Source: Aequorivita vladivostokensis (GTDB taxonomy: Bacteria; Bacteroidota; Bacteroidia; Flavobacteriales; Flavobacteriaceae). From it: a stretch of DNA of 64,000 nucleotides. The stretch's first letter is position 1. Each line of letters opens with the position of its first letter. The notes beneath the pieces are model-generated. The model ran no database searches. It worked only from the letters and a program-made list of their open reading frames with translations, and had not been told where the DNA came from. The stretch covers positions 248,001-312,000 of the forward strand of contig NZ_JSVU01000001.1 of NCBI RefSeq assembly GCF_000952855.1, given 5' to 3'. Positions 42,069-58,643 of this stretch are shown piece after piece. The translations under genes were made by a program, and so were the position numbers.

Positions 42069-43298
42069 ATGCGTGCAATTTTAGTAATATTAATAGCAAT
42101 AGTAGTTTTTTCCTGTAAAGAAACGCAGGTGAATTCCGTATCTATGAAAGAAGACGTTGCCATCTTGGCCAACGATAGTTTAAACGGAAGAAAAACTGGT
42201 TCTGATGGCGAAAGGAAGGCTGCAAATTACATAGCCAAGCGGTTTGAAGATTTAGGATTGCAACCCAAAGGTTCGGAAGGATTTTTTCAAAAATTCACTT
42301 ATAAGGCCAGTAAAAATCCACATCAGGAAGCTGAATTTACTGCAGAAAATAACGATAGTACCGAGACGGGACAAAACGTGATTGCATATTTAGATAACAA
42401 AGCGGAAAATACCGTAGTAATCGGCGCCCATTACGACCATTTGGGAATGGGCGGCGAAGGTTCGTTGTATCGCGAGGGGGAAGCAATACACAACGGTGCG
42501 GACGATAACGCGAGTGGTGTTGCGATGATGCTGCATTTGGCAGATTCGCTTCAAAAGAAAGGTTCCCCGAAAAATAACAACTACCTTTTCATTGCTTTTT
42601 CTGGGGAAGAAGAGGGGTTATTGGGTTCAAATTATTTCGTTAAAAATCCAACTATTGATACTAAAAAAGTAACTTATATGCTGAATATGGATATGGTGGG
42701 AAGGCTTAATTCTGAAAATACTTTAGCAGTTTACGGCGTGGGAACTTCGCCTATTTTTAAACAAGCCGTAAATGCGAATGCCAGGGAATTAAAAATTGCC
42801 GAAAACGAAAGCGGTGTAGGTCCGAGCGACCACACTTCGTTTTATTTGGCAGATATTCCCGTGTTGCATTTTTTCACTGGGCAGCACGAAGACTACCATA
42901 AACCCAGCGATGACGCTGAAAAGGTGAATTTTGAGGGAATGAAAATAGTTTCAAATTACATTTTCAGCATAATAAAAGATTTGGATAACCAGCCCAAACT
43001 TCCTTTCAAAAAAACCAAAAATGAAAGCGAAGTGGTGCCAGAATTTAAAGTGACGTTGGGCGTGGTTCCCGATTATCTTTTCAGCGGAAAAGGGATGCGA
43101 ATTGATGGTGTAAGTGAAGACAAACCAGCCCAAAAAGCAGGACTTCAAAAAGGCGACATTGTTGTAAAAATGGGCGATTTTGAAGTAACCGATATGATGA
43201 GCTATATGAAGAGTCTTTCAAAATTTGAAAAGGGGCAGACAGCAAAAATAACTATCGAAAGGGGTGGGGAATTGAAGGAGATTTCCGTTACATTTTAG
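42069..43298 (+). CDS. M28 family metallopeptidase lipoprotein with PDZ domain
   Basis: The protein has 409 residues with a lipid-attachment Cys16 (IVVFSC). The M28 aminopeptidase domain (about 30-300) has the zinc ligands in order: GAHYDH, GADDNASG, SGEEEG, NMDMVGR and HEDYHKPSDD. A PDZ domain (about 320-405, AQKAGLQKGDIVVKM) follows. It is a surface or periplasmic exopeptidase. ATG at 42069 is preferred to a TTG six codons upstream, inside the promoter box. It shares a palindromic promoter region with the divergent TolB-like lipoprotein. Confidence 0.92.
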   Translation: MRAILVILIAIVVFSCKETQVNSVSMKEDVAILANDSLNGRKTGSDGERKAANYIAKRFEDLGLQPKGSEGFFQKFTYKASKNPHQEAEFTAENNDSTETGQNVIAYLDNKAENTVVIGAHYDHLGMGGEGSLYREGEAIHNGADDNASGVAMMLHLADSLQKKGSPKNNNYLFIAFSGEEEGLLGSNYFVKNPTIDTKKVTYMLNMDMVGRLNSENTLAVYGVGTSPIFKQAVNANARELKIAENESGVGPSDHTSFYLADIPVLHFFTGQHEDYHKPSDDAEKVNFEGMKIVSNYIFSIIKDLDNQPKLPFKKTKNESEVVPEFKVTLGVVPDYLFSGKGMRIDGVSEDKPAQKAGLQKGDIVVKMGDFEVTDMMSYMKSLSKFEKGQTAKITIERGGELKEISVTF

Positions 43299-43446: not shown

Positions 43447-45099
<1,653 letters not shown>

Positions 45100-45101
45100 T
45101 C

Positions 45102-45121
45102 ATTCCTGCGGAGGCAGGAAT
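45102..45121. repeat. ATTCCTGC-type short palindrome, copy 2
   Basis: ATTCCTGC and GCAGGAAT are separated by GGAG, in the groES-groEL spacer. It has the same stem as the copy at 40888. Confidence 0.8.
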
Positions 45122-45226
45122 CTTTTGGTTAATACTTATAATTTCTAAATTTTTTGCTTTTGAAGAAATTCCAAAAATAAAATTCCAAATTCCAAAGTTT
45201 GGAATTTGGTGCTTGTATTTTGGAAT

Positions 45227-45502
45227 TTAAATTATCGCGAGTATGTCGTCCTCGCGCATGATGAGATAGTCTTTGCCGTCAAATTTCAATTCGCTGCCGG
45301 AGTATTTTCCGTAAAGAACGGTATCGCCGACCTTCACGGTCATTTTGTGGTCTTCTTTGCCTTTGCCCACAGCTACTACTTTTCCTTGTTGTGGTTTTTC
45401 TTTTGCGGAATCTGGAATGTAAATACCAGATGCGGTTTTAGTTTCAGCCTCTTCTGGCTGAACCAATACGCGGTCTGCGAGTGGTTGAATTTTTAATGCC
45501 AT
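45227..45502 (-). CDS. groES: Co-chaperonin GroES
   Basis: The protein has 91 residues with [20 protein letters not shown] at the N-terminus and the mobile-loop sequence [27 protein letters not shown] completes the fold. It caps the GroEL ring. The upstream region contains a candidate sigma-54 promoter (45557-45572) rather than the CIRCE element seen in many other phyla. Confidence 0.97.
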
Positions 45503-45556
45503 TTCAATTTTATTTTTTAGTTGTTAAACTTAAGTTTAAATGTTTGCTTGCTAATT

Positions 45557-45572
45557 GGCAGAAATTGTGCCA
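45557..45572 (-). promoter_or_regulatory. Candidate sigma-54 promoter of groES-groEL
   Basis: On the minus strand the sequence TGGCACAATTTCTGCC matches the sigma-54 consensus TGGCAC-N5-TTGC at nine of ten positions (C for the first T of the -12 element). GG and GC have the correct spacing. The predicted start lies about 45 nt before the groES ATG. Confidence 0.55.
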
Positions 45573-45601
45573 CTGCCCATAAACTGACATATTCCAAAAT
45601 A

Positions 45602-45632
45602 AAAATGCCAGCTTGTCAGAAGCTGGCATTTT
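45602..45632. terminator. Terminator-like hairpin at the groES side of the island
   Basis: The 13-bp perfect stem AAAATGCCAGCTT (45602-45614) / AAGCTGGCATTTT (45620-45632) has the loop GTCAG. It lies upstream of groES with no gene directly ending there. The stem is nearly identical to the hairpin at 50559-50590. Confidence 0.75.
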
Positions 45633-45928
45633 AAATCTAATAAAAATATTAGGGAGAAAATTAATATTAACAAAGAATATAGGCTTTTATTGGGCAATTG
45701 AGTTAAAGAAAAATTAACTTTTGATTTGAAAATTTTGGTTATTCGGCGTTTTTTTTTTTAACTTAAACGAAATATTGCGATTGTCACACGCAAATTAAGT
45801 ATGATTTTATGTGTTGTTTACATCAATAAATGATAAAAACATCTCTTTATATTATTATCAAAAGCTGTGTCTTTCAATCTTAAAACCAAAGAATTAATCT
45901 TTCTAGAATTGCACAAAAACTAATTAAA
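45633..45928. other. AT-rich intergenic stretch at the island edge
   Basis: This stretch contains no gene, no strong promoter consensus and no repeat that I can support. Together with the groES promoter and hairpin it makes a 426-bp gap between groES and the damaged leucine-rich-repeat gene. Confidence 0.4.
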
Positions 45929-46960
45929 ATGAAAAACCTCTATTATACACTCCTTTTTACAATATGCTTTTCCTTTTTAGGGACCATGTAGCTTACGGCA
46001 CAGATAGTCAACATACCGGATCCAAATTTTAAAGCGGCGCTTCTCGCTGACGGTAATATTAATACCAATGGCGATGGGGAAATACAGGTTAGCGAGGCAG
46101 AGGCTGCGGTTGATGTTAGTGTTGTTGGCAACAATATTAATGATTTAACAGGTATCGAAGCATTTATCAACATAACTTTTTTAGAATGTTCCAATAATAA
46201 TTTAACATTCATTGATATTAGCAACAATCTTGAACTTGAAATTTTTGAATGTTATAATAATCAACTCACAAATATTGATATAAGCCAAAATATGGCACTA
46301 TATCAATTTGAATGCAGGTTCAACCAACTTACGAGTCTGGATTTGAGCAATAACCCCAATATTGTGCTCTTATCAATGGGCAATAATAATATTTCAGAGT
46401 TGGATTTGGTTGATAACAATGCCTTGCTCATTTTGGAATGTGCCGACACACAATTGGAAAGTCTTGATTTGAGCCATAATACTGGTCTCACCTCTTTAAT
46501 CTGTAATGATAACGATGCCTTGACATATATAAATCTTAAAAATGGTAACAATGAAAATTTGGTTTTTGATGGGCCTTTTCCGAGCAATTTTGAAAACCTA
46601 CAGAGCTTAGAGACCATTTGTATAAATGATATTAATAATACAGCACTGATAGATGAAATTACTGCGCAAGTAGGCCATCAAGTAGATTTTACGGAAGATT
46701 GTACCCTAGGTATGGCAGATGCAGATTTCAATGAAATAAGAATATATCCAGTACCCATTGGAGATAAATTATATATAAGTGCCATAACACCAATCGTACA
46801 AATGAATGTTTATAATTTATTGGGGCAAAAGGTGCTTTCAATAGCTCAAAAGAATTCCATTGTGGAAGTAAGTGTTGAAAAGCTGCCTATAGGTGTATAT
46901 GTAGTAATGCTACAAGACACTAACGGACGTGTTAGTGCCAAGAAAGTAGTAAGAAGATGA
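45929..46960 (+). pseudogene. Leucine-rich-repeat T9SS type A protein with in-frame TAG in its signal peptide
   Basis: The frame starts at ATG 45929 and encodes a normal-looking signal peptide (MKNLYYTLLFTICFSFLG). It stops at codon 21 (TAG at 45989-45991), then continues open in the same frame to 46960. After the stop the sequence resumes with LTAQIVNIPDPNFKAALL, the usual post-signal start of secreted LRR proteins of this group. It continues with repeats of the form LTSLDLSNNPNI and ends in a T9SS type A sorting domain (about the last 75 residues, IYPVPIGDKLYIS). TGG or another sense codon was probably lost by one substitution. Internal starts (for example 46292) would lack the signal peptide and so could not be secreted. 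Confidence 0.85.
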
Positions 46961-46977
46961 ATTTAATTTAAGGAATT

Positions 46978-47574
46978 ATGAAAAAAAATGTATTGATACT
47001 TTTGGCGGTGGTAACTTTTTTAGGCTGCTCAAAAAAAGATGATGGCCCAAAATTGCCCCCCATTACCCAAACGGGTGCAAATACTTTTGGATGTTATATA
47101 GATGGGAATCTCTTGGTGCCCCGTAGTGGAACAGGCACTTTTAACTCTCCTGATTATGGAATGGTATTGGAAGCAGGCCCAGGGCCGGGTGATAACGTTT
47201 TGTATCATGAACTTAAAGTATATGATTATAAAAGTGGAAATGGAGCGCGCTTTACCTTGCATATTTTAGGCCTCTTGGACAATGGCGTTGGTACTTACGC
47301 TATCAATGAAAGTAACTGTGAAGGAAACATTTTATCTAACCAAAATACTAATCTTTTTTGTCGGTGGTGGAATGAAAATACACAAACTTATAAATGGTAT
47401 TGCTCCGTTGAGAACGGCGGTACTTTGGAGGTTTTGAGGAATGAAAACGGCATACTGTCTGGCACTTTTAATTCCAGAATGGTCAATCGCGATGATCCCA
47501 CAGAGTTTATAGAAATAACAGAAGGTCGATTCGATATTAACGGCTATACTTTATTGGATAAATATTTTCCTTAA
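46978..47574 (+). CDS. DUF6252-like lipoprotein, intact copy
   Basis: The protein has 198 residues. A lipoprotein signal (VVTFLGC, lipid Cys17) is followed by a short acidic-Lys linker and a beta-rich domain starting LPPITQTGANTFGCYIDG. That domain resembles the DUF6252 family of Bacteroidota surface lipoproteins. It ends with the conserved-looking EFIEITEGRFDI element. The function is unknown. A paralogue follows at 47750 and has lost this C-terminal element. It lies 17 bp after the damaged LRR gene, so both may once have formed an operon. Confidence 0.8.
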   Translation: MKKNVLILLAVVTFLGCSKKDDGPKLPPITQTGANTFGCYIDGNLLVPRSGTGTFNSPDYGMVLEAGPGPGDNVLYHELKVYDYKSGNGARFTLHILGLLDNGVGTYAINESNCEGNILSNQNTNLFCRWWNENTQTYKWYCSVENGGTLEVLRNENGILSGTFNSRMVNRDDPTEFIEITEGRFDINGYTLLDKYFP

Positions 47575-47749
47575 AAAAATGGGTGCCTTTGGCGAGTCGC
47601 CCAATATTGAAAAATAAAACAAAATAAACGCAATTCCATAGAGTAATATGATTCAAATCATAATCTGGGGAGTAATTTTAACCTAACTTAAGCACTATTG
47701 CAGATTTCATTTTAAAAATCAATTGAAGAACCCTTAAAGTATTGAAATT

Positions 47750-48325
47750 ATGAAAGCAACAATTATAATTTTGGCCCTTATTTTAATGGCCCCGGCAAGC
47801 TGCTCAAAAAAAGGTGATGACGGTTTTAAGCCCACCCTGCCGCCCATTACCCAGACCGGGGAGAACACCTTTGGGTGCTATGCCAACGGAGTATTGATAA
47901 CTCCACGGGATGGCTCTGGAACTTTTAACTCGCCTGATTATGGGCTGAGATTTGTCGCAGGTCCTTCTCCAGAAAATATTATATATAATGAAATATTAGT
48001 CCATGATTTTGCTAGTGAAAAAACAGCGAGCATCACAGTGCACATCATTGATATGGATTCCCTAGGAATTGGAGAATATATTGTAAACGAAAGCAATTGT
48101 TATGGAAATGTGGATAGCCCCAATACCAATAACGTATTTTGCAGAATATGGGTCGAGGAAGAAAATCTTTACAAAAGCTATTGCTCCCTCCCAAACTCGG
48201 GGGTTATTACCATAACAAGATATGATGATTGCATCATATCCGGAACTTTTAGCTGCAGGGCGGCAGCTTTTGAAGAACCTACCGCATCCCGAACAATCGG
48301 ACGCAGAACATGTTTCCATCTATGA
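47750..48325 (+). CDS. DUF6252-like lipoprotein with foreign C-terminus
   Basis: A frame of 191 residues with a lipoprotein signal (MAPASC, lipid Cys18). It is homologous to the neighbouring copy from LPPITQTGENTFGCYANG to about SGTFSCRAAAFEEPT. After this (near base 48285) the similarity ends abruptly. The last residues ASRTIGRRTCFHL come from a different gene read out of frame. The expected FIEITEGRFDI terminal element is missing. The protein may be made, but its last strand is wrong, so function is doubtful. Codon choice differs strongly from the intact copy even where the protein words are identical, so the duplication is old or the two arrived separately. Confidence 0.75.
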   Translation: MKATIIILALILMAPASCSKKGDDGFKPTLPPITQTGENTFGCYANGVLITPRDGSGTFNSPDYGLRFVAGPSPENIIYNEILVHDFASEKTASITVHIIDMDSLGIGEYIVNESNCYGNVDSPNTNNVFCRIWVEEENLYKSYCSLPNSGVITITRYDDCIISGTFSCRAAAFEEPTASRTIGRRTCFHL

Positions 48326-50550
48326 ATTTATGACCTATAAAAATAATTTAGATCAAACCGTTTTTTTAGTCGATTCACTAAGAACAATTGGATACGACGT
48401 TGTTATCGTCAACCAACCCACCTATCCAGAAAACCTGGTTCAACAAAACCCACCAATAATAGACGGCGGTGCAGATTATATAGAGCGCAATGCCATGGCA
48501 CATGTGGCCCTGTACCAAGCTTTGAAATGATACCTTGGCTCAAAACAATAGCACAGAGCAATTAGTTATAGTGGGTCCCAGCATGGGCGGACAGATTTCC
48601 CGTTATGCCTTGGCCTATATGAAAAAGCACAACATGCCCCACAACACCCGTCTGTGGGTAAGTGTGGACAGTCCGCATTTAGGCGCCAACATCCCCATGG
48701 GCGCACAATCGCTCCTCAATGTGCTGAACGATTTTGCTGACAGCGCAGAAGCACAGGACTTTGTGGAAAACCAATTGGGCTCCGCGGCCGCCAGACAGCA
48801 GCTCATCGAGCAACACAAAGTAGATTACATTCCGATACCTATACCACCTTTCTATTTGCCGTTCCATAGTTACATCCTTGACGGAAAGACAGAATCGCAG
48901 GGCTTTTCCCAAGACCAAGGCCATCCTTTTTTTATTCAATATTATGATGCCTTGTACAATAATGGTTTACCAAATAGCGAGGGCTATCCACAAAACTTAC
49001 GGAAGATCGCTATTGTGAACGGTTCCTTGACAAATTCCATAGATTTTCAGAATCCATTTGTTTCTGGAGGCACAGATTTCAACAGCAATGGCCCAACGCC
49101 CAGTAGTTACCGATCGCACGGAGCACAGACCTTTAAAATAGAGGGAGATGCCAATGTTATAGGTCATATTGTCACGTTGGAAACATATAATTTGCCGTCT
49201 ATGGGAAACAACCATAAACTGTCCTATTTTAAAAAAAAGAAATTTGGTGGTTGGACTTATTACGATCAATATATTACCAACAACAATTCCAGGGGCAATA
49301 TGGACAATGTGCCGGGCGGGTGGTTTCCTACACAACGTGAGTTGGCCAAATCAATCGAGGATTCGACTCCTTGTGATTGGGTAGGTATAGAAGATCCCAA
49401 TTGGGGCGGTTATATATGTGTTAACGATTGGTATGTTATAAATTTGGCCCACGTAAGTTCCTTTATACCGACTGTCAGTGCTTTGGGTTTTAAAGACCCC
49501 GATTTCAACTGGCATCAGGCATTCAAAAGAAACTTGGTCTGTCCCGGAAACAAAGAAATCCCCTTTGACACTTACTTTGGCCCACGCAACAACGAACAGC
49601 ACACCTCGTTTACCGAAAAAAGCGTCAATTGGTTATTAGAAGAACTTGCAGGCAATCCTCAACCGCCCACAGTCCCTTTAGACCCTGAAGATATGAGCGG
49701 CCCGACGGTTATCTGTGGCACCGATACGGTTACTTACAGTTTCGACTTTTGCGAGAGCCTTCCCGTTATAGCATGGGAGGTTTCAAATAACCTAATAAAA
49801 ACAACTCCTTTAACTAACTATAACCGTAGCATTATTGTACAACCCGTGCATGCATCAACCAATGGTTGGGCATACGTAAAAGCCATTTTCGCAAGCCCAA
49901 ATGAGCCAGTGCAAAAAAATATTTGGATCGGTCCGCCCAAGGTAAATTTTGTTGAGGATGTGAACATAACGCAAATAAATCATACTATGCCTATTGTTCC
50001 TCCAGATAGTTGCGATGAGTTTGGGCTGAAACTGAATATTTCTCCTTCCTTTGGCAATGTGCAGCAAATGGAGTGGGAAAAAGTATCCACAAATTATCAA
50101 TGGTCCCAAGATCCGCCAGGCTACAATGATCCTTATGTTATTATTGCGCCTTTGTGTGAAGATCCCGTTCAGTTCAAAGTCCGTATGCGTAATGAATGTG
50201 GCTGGTCCAATTGGCAACAAATAGAAGATACGAATTCCGAATGCCAGACGAATTGTGGAGGAGGCGGTGGTGGAAGCGGAACGATCACTAGTGATTATTT
50301 TATAATTTATCCCGTTCCCGTTGATACTACCCTCCACGTGAATATGATTGGCACAGATCCTACTGACCTTTTAATTGCAGGGGATACGCTTACTATCCAA
50401 CTCTTTAACAGTTCGGGCACGATGGTTAAGAACATCAATACTATTGCCTGTCATAATTCCATTGATGTATCAACTCTTCCTGCTGGGCTCTATACGTTAA
50501 AAATTATTTATAACGGTACTCCCGAGAATCATCAAATTGTAATAAATTAG
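48286..50550 (+). pseudogene. Secreted alpha/beta-hydrolase T9SS type A protein, 5'-truncated and frameshifted
   Basis: From about 48286 one frame encodes a hydrolase N-terminal part (VFLVDSLRTIGYDVVIVNQP, then IDGGADYIERNAMAHV) up to a TGA at 48528-48530. The continuation, in another frame to 50550, has the nucleophile elbow IVGPSMGGQISRYALAYM and the following SVDSPHLGANIP. It ends in a T9SS type A sorting domain (IYPVPVDTTLHV). Removing one A from the AAA run at 48525-48527 would join the frames as ALNDTLAQNN. There is no signal peptide, because the 5' end is replaced by the preceding lipoprotein gene. It resembles large secreted esterases of flavobacteria. Confidence 0.85.
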
Positions 50551-50558
50551 AATTGAAC

Positions 50559-50590
50559 AAAAATGCCAGCTCGATAAAGCTGGCATTTTT
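50559..50590. terminator. Terminator hairpin at the secG side of the island
   Basis: The 13-bp perfect stem AAAAATGCCAGCT (50559-50571) / AGCTGGCATTTTT (50578-50590) has the loop CGATAA and runs of A and T on either side. It can end both minus-strand secG and the plus-strand hydrolase remnant. Confidence 0.85.
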
Positions 50591-50608
50591 AAATATTTTA
50601 TAAAGTAA

Positions 50609-50941
50609 TTATTCTGCTGGATCTGTTGTGGCAGGTGCAGGAGTTTCGGTAGTGGGAACCGCGGGAATGGCACTCTCGTCAAACGTTTTTGACTGTACGG
50701 TGTTGCCGCCCATGATAAAAACATTTGAAAATAAAATCAACGCCAGCATAATGGTTGCAAGGGTCCAAGTACTTTTATCAAGAAAGTCGCTGGTTTTCTG
50801 CACCCCGCCAATCTGTGCGCCGCCGCCACCGCCGAAAGACGATGAAAGTCCGCCCCCTTTTGGATTTTGAACCATTATTACTACGACCAACAAAAAGGCC
50901 ACTATCATTATTAAAACTAGGAATATTGTAAACGTACTCAT
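50609..50941 (-). CDS. secG: Preprotein translocase subunit SecG
   Basis: The protein has 110 residues with two transmembrane helices (about 3-22 and 57-77). Between them lies the Gly-rich cytosolic loop QNPKGGGLSSSFGGGGGAQ, the signature of SecG. A Pro/Thr/Ala-rich C-terminal extension (about 85-110) is typical of Bacteroidota versions. It assists SecYE in protein export. Its ATG overlaps the stop of the upstream TPR gene (ATGA). Confidence 0.95.
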   Translation of the reverse strand: MSTFTIFLVLIMIVAFLLVVVIMVQNPKGGGLSSSFGGGGGAQIGGVQKTSDFLDKSTWTLATIMLALILFSNVFIMGGNTVQSKTFDESAIPAVPTTETPAPATTDPAE

Positions 50942-51843
50942 GATTGTTCTGAATTAATCAACTTTTCTATTGCCCGAATTTGGTCTGCAAAGAAACCACT
51001 TTTTTCGGGATTTTTCAAAATTAAAATTTTATATGCCTGAATTGCTTTTTTATAGTTCTTTTGTTGCAGGTACACTTTTGCCAAAGTCTCCGTCATTAGA
51101 GACTCGGGCGTTTGTGTGAATGGTGCGGCAAGGTTTTTTGGTTCCTCTTTTTTCTTGGCGGTTGAGCTTTCTTCTGAAGGAACTATTCTCGGGCGTTCCT
51201 GAATAAACTTGTCAATCAATTCAAATTTGCGTTCTTTCTCATCATCTTTTATTGAGCTTTCAGGTTCCTCTTTTGAAATTTCCTCTGAACGTTCAATCGG
51301 TTTTGCTTTTGTAAGTTTTAGCCACTCTGAAAAGGAGTGGGTGTCGTTTTTGGTAAATTCCAAAGGTTTATTCGGTTGCAGTATTTCTTCGATTTTTTCC
51401 TCTTTCTCTGCAATTAAATTGGAAACGGAAGCCACCTTTCTTTGAAACAGTTCGGGATTCAGAATATCTTCGGCCTTTTGCATTTCGGCTTTTAATTGCC
51501 TGTCTATTTCAAGGCTTATCTGTTCTGAAACATCTTCGACCACAACGGTTATTTCTTCCACCGAAGCATCGTGCTGCAAGATGGTTTGTGAAATTTCATT
51601 CTGGACAAATTTTTCAGAAGTAATGTATTCAAATAGAATGTCCCGATCTGTGGTGTGGGCTGCGGCGAGTTTTAGCGCATCATTGTATAGAAAACTATCC
51701 TGGTTTTTCAATCCCTTTAACTGTAGGGCACGGGCGCTTTGGAAATAAGGGTATTTTTGAATGATAATTTCCAATGAGGAAACGTCCTCAGCGGTTATTT
51801 TCTGGGGATTGGCCAATAAATATGTATAATTTTCAATATTCAA
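50938..51843 (-). CDS. Tetratricopeptide-repeat protein
   Basis: The protein has 301 residues. The N-terminal part (about 1-75) contains ITAEDVSSLEIIIQKYPYFQSARAL, of which LEIIIQKYPYFQSA is typical of a helical-repeat domain. A charged, poorly ordered middle follows (about 115-245). The C-terminal TPR-like pair reads TETLAKVYLQQKNYKKAIQAY. The start is TTG at 51843; no ATG is near. It is coupled to secG and lies in the miaB operon. Its role is unknown; a link to envelope biogenesis is suggested only by lptE and secG beside it. Confidence 0.82.
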   Translation of the reverse strand: MNIENYTYLLANPQKITAEDVSSLEIIIQKYPYFQSARALQLKGLKNQDSFLYNDALKLAAAHTTDRDILFEYITSEKFVQNEISQTILQHDASVEEITVVVEDVSEQISLEIDRQLKAEMQKAEDILNPELFQRKVASVSNLIAEKEEKIEEILQPNKPLEFTKNDTHSFSEWLKLTKAKPIERSEEISKEEPESSIKDDEKERKFELIDKFIQERPRIVPSEESSTAKKKEEPKNLAAPFTQTPESLMTETLAKVYLQQKNYKKAIQAYKILILKNPEKSGFFADQIRAIEKLINSEQS

Positions 51844-51890
51844 AGTGCAATTTTAAACTATAAATTTTTTTAAAATAACCGTAGTCCCGG

Positions 51891-52403
51891 TTACCAATTA
51901 GCAAGCGATTTATTAAAAATATCTTGGGTTATCCGCTCAAAAATAATCTCCACTGCGGCGTCTAGTTTTGCGCCCGTTAGCTGGGTTTGTCCCGGATAAT
52001 CGTAATAAAAACTGAAAGGTTGCTCAAAATCCTTAAGCGGATCCTTTGTGTTAAAAAACCGTACGTTTACTGTGATCGTCAATCGGTTTTGGGCGGCAGT
52101 ACTATTTGCCGTGGCGGTAATTGGCGCTATATAATATTGTGTTATTTCACCCTCGTAAACCAAATCGCCATTATTGTTCACTAGATCTAAACTGGTTTGG
52201 TTCAAAAGCAACTCTTGTAATTTTTGGGTAAAGTCCCTGGCAATTCCCGGCTCTACAATAGGCGCATTGTTCTGAAAATAATTAACCTGTACCGTTTTTG
52301 TAGTGCTGTAATTTATATCTGCTCCCGTAAAGGAATAAGGTCCGCACGCTTGCAATAGGATTGCTGAAATAAGAAGCAGTATTATTGAAAGTATTCTTGG
52401 CAT
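51891..52403 (-). CDS. lptE: LptE family lipoprotein
   Basis: The protein has 170 residues with a lipobox (ILLQAC, lipid Cys20) followed by the beta-rich LptE fold. GPYSFTGADINYSTTKTVQV and NRLTITVNVRFFNTKDP are characteristic of Bacteroidota LptE. It would plug and support LptD, the lipopolysaccharide translocon of the outer membrane. It lies in the miaB operon between the sigma-54 activator and the TPR gene. Confidence 0.88.
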   Translation of the reverse strand: MPRILSIILLLISAILLQACGPYSFTGADINYSTTKTVQVNYFQNNAPIVEPGIARDFTQKLQELLLNQTSLDLVNNNGDLVYEGEITQYYIAPITATANSTAAQNRLTITVNVRFFNTKDPLKDFEQPFSFYYDYPGQTQLTGAKLDAAVEIIFERITQDIFNKSLANW

Positions 52404-52470
52404 TTACGTTGTTTTAATTTCTCTTTTGAAATTTGATGCACGAGATAAATCGTGGGCCGTTGACTTGATT

Positions 52471-53748
52471 TTACAAGTCGTATTGTTTAATTTTTCTGTA
52501 AAGCGTTCTCTCTGAAATTCCAAGTTCATCTGCCGCATCTTTGCGTTTTCCGTTGTATTTTTCGAGTGATTTTTTGATGAGTTCCAACTCCTTTTGCTGA
52601 AGGGAAAGATTTTCCTCTTCCTCGATATCCTCGGCATATTCGTACTTGTCCTTTCGTTGCTCTGAAGTGTGTTCGGGAATGCTGAAAACTTCAACGTCCG
52701 TTTGTGTGCCATTGGTCTCTTCATCAATTATGGAAGCCAGTTCCTCTTCAGCTTCATTTTCTCCGGAATAAATTTTATTGATGAGCGAGGACTGTTCTTC
52801 CTTAACCTTTGCCGCATTCCCGGTTTTCATCAATTCCAAGGTTAGCTTTTTAAGATCGTTTACGTCGCGCTTCATATCAAAAAGCACTTTGTAGAGAATC
52901 TCGCGCTCGCTGCTGAAGTCACTTTCAGCCTTTTTCGCATTTACGATCGCGGGCAGATTGCTCCCCATATCGGGTAAATAATGTTTAAGGGTTTCATCGG
53001 AAATTTCTCGGTTTTGCTCTAAAACTGAAATTTGTTCCGCAACGTTTCGCAACTGCCGAATGTTTCCGCTCCAGCGATATTTCAGCAATAAATCGGTTGC
53101 TTCGTCTGTCAATCTTATGGTAGGCATTTTATATTTCTGGGCAAAATCTGCCGCAAATTTTCTAAAAAGCAAATGGATATCCTCCTTCCGTTCGCGCAGT
53201 GGTGGCAGATTGATTTCCACTGTGCTCAATCTGTAGTAAAGATCCTCGCGAAATTTTCCTTTTTCAATGGCATCTACCATTTTTACATTCGTAGCGGCAA
53301 CGATGCGAACGTCTGTTTTCTGAGCCGCGGAAGAGCCAACTTTTAAAAATTCGCCATTTTCCAAAACCCGCAATAAACGTACCTGGGTGGGAAGCGGTAA
53401 TTCGCCAACTTCATCGAGGAAAATAGTGCCGCCATCAGCCACTTCAAAATACCCGCTTCGTGTAGCTGTTGCACCGGTAAAAGAACCTTTTTCATGCCCG
53501 AAAAGTTCGCTGTCGATGGTGCCCTCGGGAATAGCGCCACAGTTTACAGCAATGTATTTACCGTGTTTTCTGTGCGATAGCGAATGTATAATTTTCGGAA
53601 TACTTTCCTTACCCACACCACTTTCGCCTGTTACCAATACCGAAATATCTGTAGGCGCAACTTGAATTGCTTTTTCCACAGCGCGGTTCAGTTTTGGGTC
53701 GTTGCCTATTATTCCGAAACGTTGTTTTGTTGCTTGTATGCTTTCCAT
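52471..53748 (-). CDS. Sigma-54-interacting AAA+ transcription activator without sensory domain
   Basis: The protein has 425 residues. The AAA+ domain begins almost at the N-terminus, with Walker A GESGVGKE (41-48). The sigma-54 contact loop reads GSFTGA (88-93), one residue different from the usual GAFTGA. Walker B is GGTIFLDEVG. A long, low-complexity acidic linker (about 300-380) separates it from a C-terminal Fis-type helix-turn-helix (about 385-425, RKDAADELGISERTLYRKI). No receiver, GAF or PAS domain is present, so regulation must come through expression level or partners. It lies in the miaB-lptE-secG operon. Confidence 0.9.
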   Translation of the reverse strand: MESIQATKQRFGIIGNDPKLNRAVEKAIQVAPTDISVLVTGESGVGKESIPKIIHSLSHRKHGKYIAVNCGAIPEGTIDSELFGHEKGSFTGATATRSGYFEVADGGTIFLDEVGELPLPTQVRLLRVLENGEFLKVGSSAAQKTDVRIVAATNVKMVDAIEKGKFREDLYYRLSTVEINLPPLRERKEDIHLLFRKFAADFAQKYKMPTIRLTDEATDLLLKYRWSGNIRQLRNVAEQISVLEQNREISDETLKHYLPDMGSNLPAIVNAKKAESDFSSEREILYKVLFDMKRDVNDLKKLTLELMKTGNAAKVKEEQSSLINKIYSGENEAEEELASIIDEETNGTQTDVEVFSIPEHTSEQRKDKYEYAEDIEEEENLSLQQKELELIKKSLEKYNGKRKDAADELGISERTLYRKIKQYDL

Positions 53749-53754
53749 AAGCCT

Positions 53755-53774
53755 ATTTCCGCAAAGGCGGGAAT
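53755..53774. repeat. ATTCCTGC-type short palindrome, copy 3 (degenerate)
   Basis: ATTTCCGC and GCGGGAAT are separated by AAAG, in the gap between the sigma-54 activator and miaB. It pairs through one G-T and is related to the copies at 40888 and 45102. Confidence 0.6.
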
Positions 53775-53789
53775 CTCATTAATTTATTG

Positions 53790-55235
53790 TCAATTATTCT
53801 TGCTCAACCCCACTGCTTCGCCAATTAAAGTAGCAGTGGTACAATCGTTTACTTTTACTTTTACGAAATCTCCCAGTTTATAATTCTCCTTCGGAAAAAC
53901 TGCAACATTATTGTGTTCCGTTCTGCCGCTCCATTCGTCTTTGTTTTTCTTCGACTCTTTTTCAATTAAAACAGTCACGGTTTTTCCTAAAAATTCCGCG
54001 GTGCGAATGGCGCTGTGTTTTTGCTGGAGGTCCACAATTTCGGTCAATCGGCGGCTTTTTGTTTCTTCGGGCACGTCGTCTTCCAGCTTTCGGGCGGCCA
54101 TGGTGCCGGGCCTTTCGGAATATTTGTACATATAGCCAAAATCATATTTCACATATTCCATTAAACTCAAGGTTTCTTTATGGTCTTCCTCAGTTTCCGT
54201 GGGGAAACCAACAATCATATCCTGCGAAATGGCGCAGCCGGGAATGATTTCCCAAATTCTGTCAATCAATTTCATGTATTCCTCCCGAGTATGCTGGCGG
54301 TTCATGGCTTTCAGAATGCGCGTACTGCCGCTTTGAACGGGAAGGTGGATGTGGTTACAGATATTTTCGTGCTTCGCTACCACGTGCAGCAATTCTTCGT
54401 GCATATCCTGTGGATTGCTGGTTGAAAAACGGATGCGCATTTTTGGGTGTGCCATTGCTACCATATCCAATAATTGGGCAAAGTCTGTTGCCGTTGCCTG
54501 TTGCATTTCGGAAGCATTTTTGAAATCTTTTTTCAGGCCGCCACCGTACCATAAATAGCTGTCCACGTTTTGACCCAGCAGCGTGATTTCCTTATACCCC
54601 TTTTCGGCCAAATCATTCACTTCGCGCAAAATACTGTGTGGATCACGGCTTCGCTCTCGGCCTCTTGTAAATGGTACCACGCAAAAGGTGCACATATTAT
54701 CGCACCCGCGGGTGATGCTCACAAAAGCGGTAATGCCGTTGCCCCCCAAACGCACGGGCGAAATATCGCCGTAGGTTTCTTCTTTGGAAAGGATTACGTT
54801 TACGGCATCGCGTCCTTCCTCAACTTCTTTTAATAAATTTGGAATGTCTTTATATGCATCCGGCCCAACAACCAAATCGACGATTTTTTCCTCTTCAAGA
54901 AATTTTTCCTTTAAACGTTCCGCCATACAGCCCAAAACGCCGACTTTCATTTTCGGGTTTATTCGTTTTACGGCGTTGTATTTTTCAAGTCGTTTTCTGA
55001 CGGTTTGTTCGGCTTTATCACGAATGGAGCAGGTGTTTACTAAAACCAGATCGGCTTCTTCCAGTAAATTTGTTGTATTATATCCTTGGTCGGCAAGTAT
55101 GGAAGCCACTATTTCGCTATCGCTAAAATTCATAGCACAGCCGTAGCTTTCCAAATATAATTTTTTGGAATTGGTGTCTCGCGCTTCCAGTGTAAGCGTG
55201 TTTCCCTGTGTTTTTTCGTCAATAATCTTATCCAT
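53790..55235 (-). CDS. miaB: tRNA-2-methylthio-N6-dimethylallyladenosine synthase
   Basis: A methylthiotransferase acting on A37 of tRNA. The protein has 481 residues. The N-terminal UPF0004 cluster has Cys33, Cys69 and Cys103, and the radical-SAM cluster has Cys178, Cys182 and Cys185 (RGCDNMCTFC). A C-terminal TRAM domain follows (about 410-475). All six iron-sulfur cysteines are present, so it should be active. It heads the operon miaB, sigma-54 activator, lptE, TPR, secG. Confidence 0.96.
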   Translation of the reverse strand: MDKIIDEKTQGNTLTLEARDTNSKKLYLESYGCAMNFSDSEIVASILADQGYNTTNLLEEADLVLVNTCSIRDKAEQTVRKRLEKYNAVKRINPKMKVGVLGCMAERLKEKFLEEEKIVDLVVGPDAYKDIPNLLKEVEEGRDAVNVILSKEETYGDISPVRLGGNGITAFVSITRGCDNMCTFCVVPFTRGRERSRDPHSILREVNDLAEKGYKEITLLGQNVDSYLWYGGGLKKDFKNASEMQQATATDFAQLLDMVAMAHPKMRIRFSTSNPQDMHEELLHVVAKHENICNHIHLPVQSGSTRILKAMNRQHTREEYMKLIDRIWEIIPGCAISQDMIVGFPTETEEDHKETLSLMEYVKYDFGYMYKYSERPGTMAARKLEDDVPEETKSRRLTEIVDLQQKHSAIRTAEFLGKTVTVLIEKESKKNKDEWSGRTEHNNVAVFPKENYKLGDFVKVKVNDCTTATLIGEAVGLSKNN

Positions 55236-56126: not shown

Positions 56127-58643
56127 ATGGCAAAGAATTTAGTGATAGTTGAGTCCCCGGCAAAAGCAAAAACCATTGAAAAATTTCTTGGAAAGGATTT
56201 CAAGGTTTCCTCCAGTTTTGGGCACATTGCAGATCTTCCGTCCAAGGAATTGGGCGTGGACGTGGAAGGGGATTTTACACCTAAATATATAGTGAGCAGC
56301 GACAAAAAGAAGCTGGTGGCAGAATTGAAGTCGCTGTCCAAAAAAGCTGATATGGTTTGGCTGGCAAGTGATGAAGACCGCGAGGGAGAAGCCATTGCGT
56401 GGCATCTTGCCGAGGAATTGAAGCTGGACAAAAACAAGACCAAGCGGATTGTTTTTCACGAAATTACCAAGTCTGCTATTTTAAAAGCGATTGAAAACCC
56501 GCGCCAGATTGATTATAATTTGGTAAACGCCCAACAGGCCCGACGTGTGTTGGACCGTTTGGTTGGGTATGAACTTTCACCCGTACTTTGGAAAAAAGTG
56601 AAAGGTGGACTTTCCGCAGGACGCGTTCAGTCGGTTGCCGTTCGGTTGATCGTGGAGCGCGAGCGCGAGATTGAAGCCTTTACGCCCGTAGGTTCCTATA
56701 GAATCGATGCCGAATTTACAACGCTTGAAGGCAGCAAGTTCAAGGCGAAACTTCCAAAGAATTTTGATACGGAAGAAGAAGCGCGCGAGTTTCTTCGGAA
56801 GAATTTGGGAGCTTCCTATAAAATTTCAGATTTAACAAAAAAGCCCGCCAGCAAAAGCCCGGCGGCACCTTTTACCACATCAACCTTACAACAGGAAGCA
56901 GCGCGAAAATTGTATTTTTCGGTTGGAAAAACGATGACCATTGCGCAACGCTTATACGAGGCTGGATTGATTACCTATATGCGTACCGACAGCGTAAACC
57001 TTAGCAACGACGCAAAAAATGCAGCACAAAAGGAAATTATTGCTTCCTATGGAAAGGAATACAGCAAACCCCGCGATTACAAGGGAAAAAGCAAGGGAGC
57101 GCAGGAGGCACACGAGGCCATCCGCCCCACTGATATGACCCAGCACAGTATTTCTGGCGACCACGACCAAGCGCGTTTGTACGATTTAATTTGGAAGCGA
57201 ACCTTGGCTTCGCAAATGAGCGATGCGCAATTGGAGCGTACCAATGTGAAGATTGACGTGCTTTCCAAAGAAAAAGTTTCAGAAAATTTCACTGCAAATG
57301 GTGAAATGATAAAGTTTGACGGTTTTCTAAAAGTATATTTGGAAGGAACCGATTTTGAGGAAGAAGAGCAGGAAGGCATGTTGCCAAATATGAAAAATGG
57401 CGACTCACTTGAAAACAACTACATCACCGCTACCGAACGCTTTACGCGTCCGCCGTACCGATACACGGAGGCGTCGTTGGTAAAGCAATTGGAGGAACTC
57501 GGCATCGGCCGTCCGTCAACTTACGCACCGACTATTTCAACCATCATCAGCAGAAATTATGTTGAAAAGGGAACCGTGGAAGGCGTGGAGCGAAAGTATC
57601 TTCAGTTAACACTTCAAAAGGAAAACATAAAAGATAAAACCTTGACCGAAACTGTTGGATCCGACAAAGGGAAATTGGTTCCCACAGATATCGGGATGAT
57701 CGTGAACGACTTTTTGGTGGAACATTTCGAAAATATTCTTGACTACAATTTCACCGCAAAAGTAGAACAGGATTTTGACGACATAGCCGAAGGCAAAGAG
57801 GAGTGGACCAAGATGATGAAGGATTTCTACGGAAAATTCCATCCACGGGTAGAGCACGTTGAAGAAAATGCAGACCGCGAAAGTGGCGAGCGCATTTTGG
57901 GCGAAGACCCCGAAACGGGCAAAACCGTTTTGGTACGCCTCGGAAAATACGGCCCCATGGCACAGATTGGCGCGCCGGAAGACGAGGAGAAAAAATTCGC
58001 CAGTCTCCGTCCAGACCAGCAATTGCATTTGGTTACTTTTGAGGAAGTGATGGACCTTTTCAAGCTTCCGAAGACTTTGGGCATTTATGAAAAAGAAGAG
58101 GTTGAGGTGAACAACGGTCGGTTCGGCCCGTATGTGCGCTTCGGAAAAACCTTTATTTCGCTTCCGAAGGGAATGGATCCTTTAGACGTGGATATGGCTT
58201 TTGCAAAGGAGCTGATTGAAGAAAAGAAAAAAGCCGATGCACCTATATATATGTATGAGGATCTGCCAGTTCAAAAAGGGGTTGGACGTTTTGGCCCTTT
58301 TATAAAATGGAACAATATGTTCATCAACGTGAACAAAAAGTATGATTTTGACAATCTCTCGGATGAAGATATAGAAGAATTGATAGAGGACAAAAAGCAG
58401 AAAGAAATTGACAAGCTCATCAACGAATGGCCAGATGAAAAAATACGGATTGAAAAAGCGCGATGGGGCCGTTTCAATATTATAAAAGGTAAGACAAAAG
58501 TTGAGCTGCCCAAAGGCACTGAGGCCGACAAGATAACTTTGGAAGAGGCCAAGGATTTGCTTGATAAAAAAAGCCCAAAGAAAAAAACCGCGGCCAAAAA
58601 GAAAACCGCAACTAAGAAAAAAGCTACAGCCAAGAAAAAATAA
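56127..58643 (+). CDS. topA: DNA topoisomerase I
   Basis: A type IA enzyme that relaxes negative supercoils. The protein has 838 residues. A TOPRIM domain (1-130) shows VIVESPAKAKTIEKFLG and SDEDREGEAIAWH. The active-site Tyr is Y284 in LITYMRTDSVNL. C-terminal beta repeats are followed by a Lys/Ala-rich tail (about 810-838). No C4 zinc fingers are seen in the C-terminal part, unlike enterobacterial TopA. Its stop codon overlaps the ATG of the next gene by one base. Confidence 0.96.
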   Translation: MAKNLVIVESPAKAKTIEKFLGKDFKVSSSFGHIADLPSKELGVDVEGDFTPKYIVSSDKKKLVAELKSLSKKADMVWLASDEDREGEAIAWHLAEELKLDKNKTKRIVFHEITKSAILKAIENPRQIDYNLVNAQQARRVLDRLVGYELSPVLWKKVKGGLSAGRVQSVAVRLIVEREREIEAFTPVGSYRIDAEFTTLEGSKFKAKLPKNFDTEEEAREFLRKNLGASYKISDLTKKPASKSPAAPFTTSTLQQEAARKLYFSVGKTMTIAQRLYEAGLITYMRTDSVNLSNDAKNAAQKEIIASYGKEYSKPRDYKGKSKGAQEAHEAIRPTDMTQHSISGDHDQARLYDLIWKRTLASQMSDAQLERTNVKIDVLSKEKVSENFTANGEMIKFDGFLKVYLEGTDFEEEEQEGMLPNMKNGDSLENNYITATERFTRPPYRYTEASLVKQLEELGIGRPSTYAPTISTIISRNYVEKGTVEGVERKYLQLTLQKENIKDKTLTETVGSDKGKLVPTDIGMIVNDFLVEHFENILDYNFTAKVEQDFDDIAEGKEEWTKMMKDFYGKFHPRVEHVEENADRESGERILGEDPETGKTVLVRLGKYGPMAQIGAPEDEEKKFASLRPDQQLHLVTFEEVMDLFKLPKTLGIYEKEEVEVNNGRFGPYVRFGKTFISLPKGMDPLDVDMAFAKELIEEKKKADAPIYMYEDLPVQKGVGRFGPFIKWNNMFINVNKKYDFDNLSDEDIEELIEDKKQKEIDKLINEWPDEKIRIEKARWGRFNIIKGKTKVELPKGTEADKITLEEAKDLLDKKSPKKKTAAKKKTATKKKATAKKK

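Follow-up and report, generated by a model that had tools for sequence, protein, structure and literature searches.

The 64,000-nucleotide window analysed here, from contig NZ_JSVU01000001.1 (positions 248,001 to 312,000) of Aequorivita vladivostokensis (Flavobacteriaceae; assembly GCF_000952855.1), carries between secG and groES a 4.9-kb, mostly broken cargo of genes for exported proteins that is enclosed by two hairpins (Table 1). The genome holding the window is referred to as G000, and positions are those of the window. The groES-side hairpin (HP1) and the secG-side hairpin (HP2) have a common stem, AAAATGCCAGCT/AGCTGGCATTTT, and different loops, as an initial annotation of the same DNA had described. 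The exact-stem pattern is matched twice in the window and not once in 100 shuffles, and genome-wide in G000 it is found at just these two sites, both of them matched on either strand, whereas the reversed pattern used as a control has no match. RNA folding gives −18.8 and −20.1 kcal/mol (z scores of −4.6 and −7.2) for the two hairpins, and an Rfam search of them returned no family at the gathering score, the best match being Thr_leader (E 0.16, 26 bits vs 55). The nearest genes outside the hairpins (groEL and groES on one side, secG to miaB on the other) lie on the minus strand. The initial annotation had extended this orientation to all genes outside, which does not hold further out, where the gene at 42069-43298 and topA (56127-58643) are on the plus strand.

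Table 1 Features of the secG–groES region in the window
Feature	Position	Strand	Basis or remark
groEL	43447..45084	-	recognised by eye
groES	45227..45502	-	Pfam Cpn10
sigma54-type groES promoter, TGTCAG...TGGCACAATTTCTGC	45558..45589	-	sequence pattern; the Flavobacterium psychrophilum groES promoter is mapped as sigma54 (SM4) (PMC9723704)
groES-side hairpin HP1	45602..45632	-	loop type TTCTGACAA as in empty relatives; putative old secG terminator plus groES upstream element
conserved element TGACAAGCTGGCA (TGNCA-N3-TGNCA), 13 bp	45606..45618	-	proposed activator site for groES
leucine-rich-repeat (LRR) protein, type IX secretion system (T9SS) sorting domain	45929..46960	+	stop near gene start
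lipoprotein 1, 198 amino acids, frame open	46978..47574	+	translation of the open reading frame (ORF)
lipoprotein 2	47750..48325	+	out-of-frame lipase DNA in place of C-terminus
lipase, T9SS sorting domain, DUF676/PGAP1-like, GPSMGG	48222..50550	+	5' part missing, frameshift near 48530
secG-side hairpin HP2	50559..50590		between convergent lipase and secG stops; loop without TGACA element
secG	50609..50941	-	Pfam SecG
sigma54 activator, AAA+ and Fis-type helix-turn-helix, candidate reader of the element	52471..53748	-	Pfam PF00158, PF02954
approximate recombination block separating G000 from G018	43500..55000		identity comparison

Gene content of the island is as initially annotated, with two T9SS type A proteins, two related lipoproteins and damage in three of the four genes. 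The LRR protein and the lipase both match Por_Secre_tail, the Pfam family of the T9SS type A sorting domain, and the lipoproteins are 50% identical to each other. The LRR gene has an in-frame TAG at 45989-45991, lipoprotein 2 loses its C-terminus at about 48250 on running into lipase DNA, and the frameshifted lipase has a shorter start than its counterpart in genome G005, whereas lipoprotein 1 is open. Decay, another point of that annotation, is thus apparent in G000 but uneven, since the G005 version of the island (a metagenome assembly) has one lipoprotein rather than two, which is open, and an open lipase frame of 1056 amino acids with a putative start codon; its LRR gene is apparently broken, differently from that in G000. 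The guanine-cytosine fraction is 0.389 in the island against 0.408 and 0.411 in the flanks, so composition is no mark of foreign origin. By Pfam, no transposase, integrase or other recombinase gene, the last being a criterion for integrative elements, was found among the five island ORFs, in keeping with the earlier report of no transposase; terminal inverted repeats were given no dedicated search.

Across the genus, the interval is a place where variable gene sets lie between fixed core genes. It was counted in 26/28 Aequorivita genomes, G003 and G007 being dropped for want of a secG match. In 15/26 it is empty, with one hairpin and 153-212 bp from the secG stop codon through the groES ATG, and the hairpin loop is of the TTCTGACAA or TTATGACAA type, as in HP1. 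Because secG and groES lie close together around one hairpin in these relatives, the cargo is read as an insertion. The other 11 intervals are filled, with seven contents: the lipase island (G000, G005), a small probable outer-membrane protein (G012, G014), an LRR-like lipoprotein (G009, G015, G023), three other lipoproteins (G011, G016, G025) and, in G002, 300 bp with no gene. All coding contents look exported, their N-termini being judged by eye, and no integrase or transposase was noticed in the translations of the other contents, read by eye rather than by profile search. On a topA tree (12/25 inner branches well supported, 10 weak), at least 9 changes are required to account for the content states and at least 6 for filled versus empty. 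The insertion and decay initially proposed is therefore supported by the empty relatives and the partly decayed cargo, but not as a one-off event. The result named in that annotation as refuting insertion, most relatives having these four genes at the site, did not appear: among the 28 genomes, a version of the G000 island is present solely in G005. Small palindrome-like extra inserts are also seen just before groES in L004 (G020), L025 (G013), L069 (G001) and the filled L059, L064 and L065, for example CCCGCCAGCCGGCAGGCAGG in G020, and could belong to a dispersed repeat.

The two edges of the filled intervals differ in what they retain. The exact hairpin occurs once in 18 of the 28 genomes and twice only in G000 and G005, where it forms a repeat of ~31 bp at both island edges; an exact match is absent in 8. 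On the groES side, 5 of the 11 filled alleles have an intact or almost intact hairpin and the other 6 the element alone, with the left arm missing; in all six TTC directly precedes the element. On the secG side, TGACA is absent from the hairpin in 11/11 by reading, and the stem varies: it is changed on both sides in G015 and G023, differs also in G009 and G002, and is replaced by an unrelated hairpin in G025.

What the groES side retains is conserved beyond the genus as well. A family sample of 80 of 110 groES matches was selected without the motif, leaving out G000, G018, G128, the second G154 copy and the 26 lowest-scoring matches, so that it leans to closer relatives. As initially annotated, groES and secG are close neighbours: secG is directly upstream of groES in 77/80 members (intervals of 89-625 bp, <260 bp in 76/77), and the other three have no secG within about 900 bp of groES. 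TGNCA-N3-TGNCA is present in 39/80 intervals (200 shuffles: mean 0.24, maximum 2), and TGNAA-N3-TGTCAG, nearer the promoter, in 40 of the remaining 41 and in none of the 39. The sigma54-type box TGGCAH-NN-TTT-NN-G is found in 75/80 (shuffle mean 0.13, maximum 1). From these sequences, the upstream element of groES seems to have two alternative locations; in Aequorivita and many other members it seems to coincide with one arm plus the loop of the secG hairpin. In Aequorivita, TG[AC]CAAGCTG[AG]CA, which was relaxed so as to cover these rows, is found in 26/26 at a distance of 102-156 bp ahead of groES, and the exact TGACAAGCTGGCA is present in 23/26, not in G012, G014 and G016. A contig scan with TNTGACAAGCTGGCATTTTT gave at least 118 stretches, and among the 80 matches listed, 79 lie beside groES and/or secG and L139 does not; this set and the 30 exact-stem loci are motif-chosen and were not used for frequency claims. 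Outside the genus, the secG-side hairpin likewise stands apart from a near match to the groES element at L325 (G150) and L336 (G125), by about 50 bp with no gene between at the latter, and the G150 interval holds a lipoprotein-like gene that resembles by eye the one in G011.

The promoter downstream of the element is, by its sequence, of the −24/−12 type of sigma54-regulated groESL. In a scan of the G000 genome with the promoter pattern including TGTCA, groES was the sole match (control, 0). A second sigma54 pattern matched groES and one site inside the start of an exported-protein gene, but its reversed control gave 4; the pattern is thus not enriched and no regulon can be built on it. In F. 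psychrophilum, groES likewise lies under a −24/−12 promoter, mapped with a sigma54 motif, and is grouped by co-expression with lon, dnaK, grpE-dnaJ and htpG (PMC9723704). Locus tags in that study (THC0290_0733, sigma54 regulator; 0732, lptE; 0729, groES) fit the gene order of the window (PMC9723704). The study is not known to assign an activator to the promoter, and its main text gave no match for 'upstream activat', 'palindrom', 'operator' or 'secG' (PMC9723704). GroES of Bacteroides thetaiotaomicron is reported to be sigma54-dependent (PMC12316311). A literature search gave no match for groESL under sigma 54 in Bacteroidetes, and further sigma54/groES queries were empty, maybe from their wording.

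Identity along the flanks suggests how contents are exchanged. G000 and G018 are sisters (topA 97.2%), one filled and the other empty, and their identity is 95-100% at 42-43.5 and 55-57 kb and 73-93% between, a differing block of ~11.5 kb in G000 coordinates that runs from groEL to miaB and includes the island. All 11 reference genomes are closer to G018 than to G000 on the secG side, which favours import into G000. Among genomes with the same cargo, G009 and G015/G023 are 93-99% identical over about 2 kb of groES-groEL and 68-84% on the secG side, with 89% in the interval against 81% for topA; the interval of G012 and G014 is 96.7% identical against 86.2% for topA. These patterns fit a spread of contents by homologous recombination through the conserved flanking genes, and no mobile element was seen with the contents (Pfam for the five G000 island ORFs, reading by eye for the rest). 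Homologous recombination at flanking core genes has been proposed for hotspots that lack mobile elements (Oliveira et al. 2017, PMC5635113). The present interval resembles these hotspots in having variable genes between fixed core genes, recombination at the flanks and no mobile element; it differs in that its edges are hairpins with a common stem that overlap a conserved groES element and in that its coding contents all look exported by eye (PMC5635113). A second cargo spot appears to lie next door: in L216 (G018), a lipoprotein gene of ~290 codons separates miaB from the sigma54 activator, ~3-4 kb upstream of the secG end, and this stretch is 98-100% identical in G018, G005 and G009 (best bins) and has no match in G000.

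Some features of the junctions would also be expected of site-specific integration, in which the terminator hairpin would be the target of an element whose own end restores the terminator. Integrases acting at tRNA 3' ends work in this way, the end of the element rebuilding the target. One position serves for all seven contents, TTC precedes the element in each armless allele, several alleles have the same secG-side stem, and G000 and G005 carry the ~31-bp repeat. We nevertheless regard such integration as unlikely, because no recombinase was found by Pfam in the five G000 island ORFs or by eye in the other contents, because the secG-side stems differ in G002, G009, G015, G023 and G025, the last being unrelated, and because the groES element accounts for the conserved right junction and recombination blocks are seen.

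A further alternative is that the hairpin is simply an unusually conserved terminator, with the groES element as a by-product of its stem. Paired changes do occur in some lineages (AGTTGGCA/TGCCAACT, CGTTGGCA/TGCCAACG, AGATGGCA/TGCCATCT), and stem pairs that change together indicate that pairing matters. Among 50 exact-stem hairpins in 49/249 family genomes, however, TGACA next to the arm, and with it the element, is kept in 48 despite varying loop length, the exceptions being G208 and the second G000 copy. The element or a close form of it also persists without a pairing arm in the six armless filled alleles and in G125 and G150. The arms themselves are unequal: 35 rows were counted as merged hairpins, and of these 11 are off consensus in just the partner arm and none in just the element arm. 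For the free pair adjoining the loop, 6 rows are changed solely in the partner arm, and no row solely in the element arm. We consider a terminator and nothing else to be quite improbable here; the hairpin, initially annotated as a terminator, is seemingly more than that. Very unlikely indeed is an ancestral island lost repeatedly in relatives, since, although identity of ~88% in the best-matching parts of the G000 and G005 islands against 91% for topA fits inheritance inside a small clade, it is disfavoured by the short intervals of the family, the seven contents and the empty interval of the sister G018 within the lower-identity block.

We therefore favour, as the likely explanation, an exchange slot between secG and groES, built around a dual-purpose hairpin and with contents swapped between species by recombination. 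The ancestral interval, as the family comparison shows, is ~150 bp and comprises the secG stop, one hairpin, the sigma54-type promoter and groES. The hairpin stem would end secG transcription, and one arm plus the loop, TGACAAGCTGGCA, whose sequence is conserved, would act as an upstream element of the groESL promoter. A sigma54 activator gene lies three genes upstream of secG, and its product is the likely reader; this proximity, together with the shape of the site, suggests that the protein binds TGACAAGCTGGCA. Cargo lies between the secG terminator and the groES element, so that in a filled allele the hairpin is at the secG edge and the element at the groES edge. In double-hairpin alleles such as that of G000, both edge hairpins apparently descend from one small DNA element and the copies would have specialised, the secG-side copy keeping the stem and the groES-side copy the element. 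The groES-side hairpin would persist because one arm plus its loop is the conserved groES upstream element. The cargo of lipase, lipoproteins and LRR protein is decaying. The first insertion may have involved a break in the loop, template switching or a since-lost recombinase, which are equally compatible with the data. We note that the secG-side hairpin of L066 (G011) has a perfect stem of ~20 pairs that extends into the flank of secG and looks like the product of template switching, with one arm a copy of the other.

Several observations weigh against the exchange slot with its dual-purpose hairpin. Loss of the left arm in the six filled alleles could reflect precise breakage in the loop instead of relaxed selection, as TTC is found in all of them. 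In the 35-row arm comparison, the motif-based choice of rows fixes half of the element-arm positions, one row (L325) is a chance pairing and no real hairpin, and 4/39 rows are hairpinless. The TGNAA variant has no shuffle control and was first spotted in the very 80 sequences in which it is counted. Nor is the overlap universal: 41/80 sampled genomes have no overlapping element, and in G208 the exact stem occurs without one. Intervals >260 bp number only 2/139 in the motif-chosen set, both in Aequorivita, which makes the slot a feature of few lineages. With respect to movement, the groES side points to neither G000 nor G018 as the recipient, and the like secG-side loops of G000, G005, G011, G012 and G014 suggest few original insertions.

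Genes for a lipase and a lipoprotein recur side by side at secG, secA and clpX sites, as pairs that travel together. Related pairs lie beside a gene read by eye as secA in G008, G018, G019 and G025 and beside one read by eye as clpX in G004; at L267, L268, L271 and L272, lipase-lipoprotein modules downstream of the gene read as secA mark a further slot. The G018 and G019 modules are 96% identical and their neighbouring stretches about 76-85%. The lipase is open at 3/10 loci (a common 445-595-residue paralog at 31-36% identity and tail-only matches excluded) and the lipoprotein in 13/15 copies (excluding three matches at 31-32% identity and other lipoproteins); lipoproteins without an adjacent lipase match occur in G011 (two) and G026 (one). 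From length alone, about 77% of lipoproteins would be expected to be open if 30% of lipases are, so the asymmetry in decay is weak by itself. The ratio of nonsynonymous to synonymous substitution rates (dN/dS) is 0.16-0.20 in 9/10 pairs of lipoproteins beside broken lipases, with dS mostly 1.2-1.5 and the G018/G019 pair undefined; for the G025 and G004 lipoproteins beside open lipases it is equally low (0.16). The low ratios add some weight to retention of the lipoprotein, though the lipases may have broken late.

By analogy, the pair is possibly an effector with its immunity protein; an enzyme accompanied by a helper or an inhibitor would fit equally well. Tle3/Tli3, a phospholipase of the type VI secretion system with a lipoprotein immunity protein, likewise pairs an alpha/beta-hydrolase with a lipoprotein, whereas the lipase here has a T9SS sorting tail and its partner is a putative immunity protein (PMC9860674). 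A search of PDB sequences with the lipoprotein profile returned nothing better than E 0.13. Judged by title or the opening of the abstract, none of the papers found on type IX secretion, immunity and antibacterial lipases deals with a T9SS lipase and a lipoprotein, and there was no match for genomic islands in Aequorivita. A wider proposal joins a family-wide bifunctional hairpin, which would terminate secG and bind the neighbouring sigma54 activator to switch on groESL, with cargo inserted at the seam, to a T9SS-exported antibacterial lipase and lipoprotein immunity proteins swapped between species at secG and secA slots; we put this combination forward tentatively and think it more apt to fail than to hold.

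The locus offers a concrete candidate site and reader for the flavobacterial sigma54-type chaperonin promoter, and its insertions amount to a natural experiment in which a terminator is split from the upstream element that overlaps it. It also provides an example of a gene slot that lacks mobile elements and has boundaries legible to the single base, and a candidate T9SS lipase-lipoprotein pair that is directly testable.

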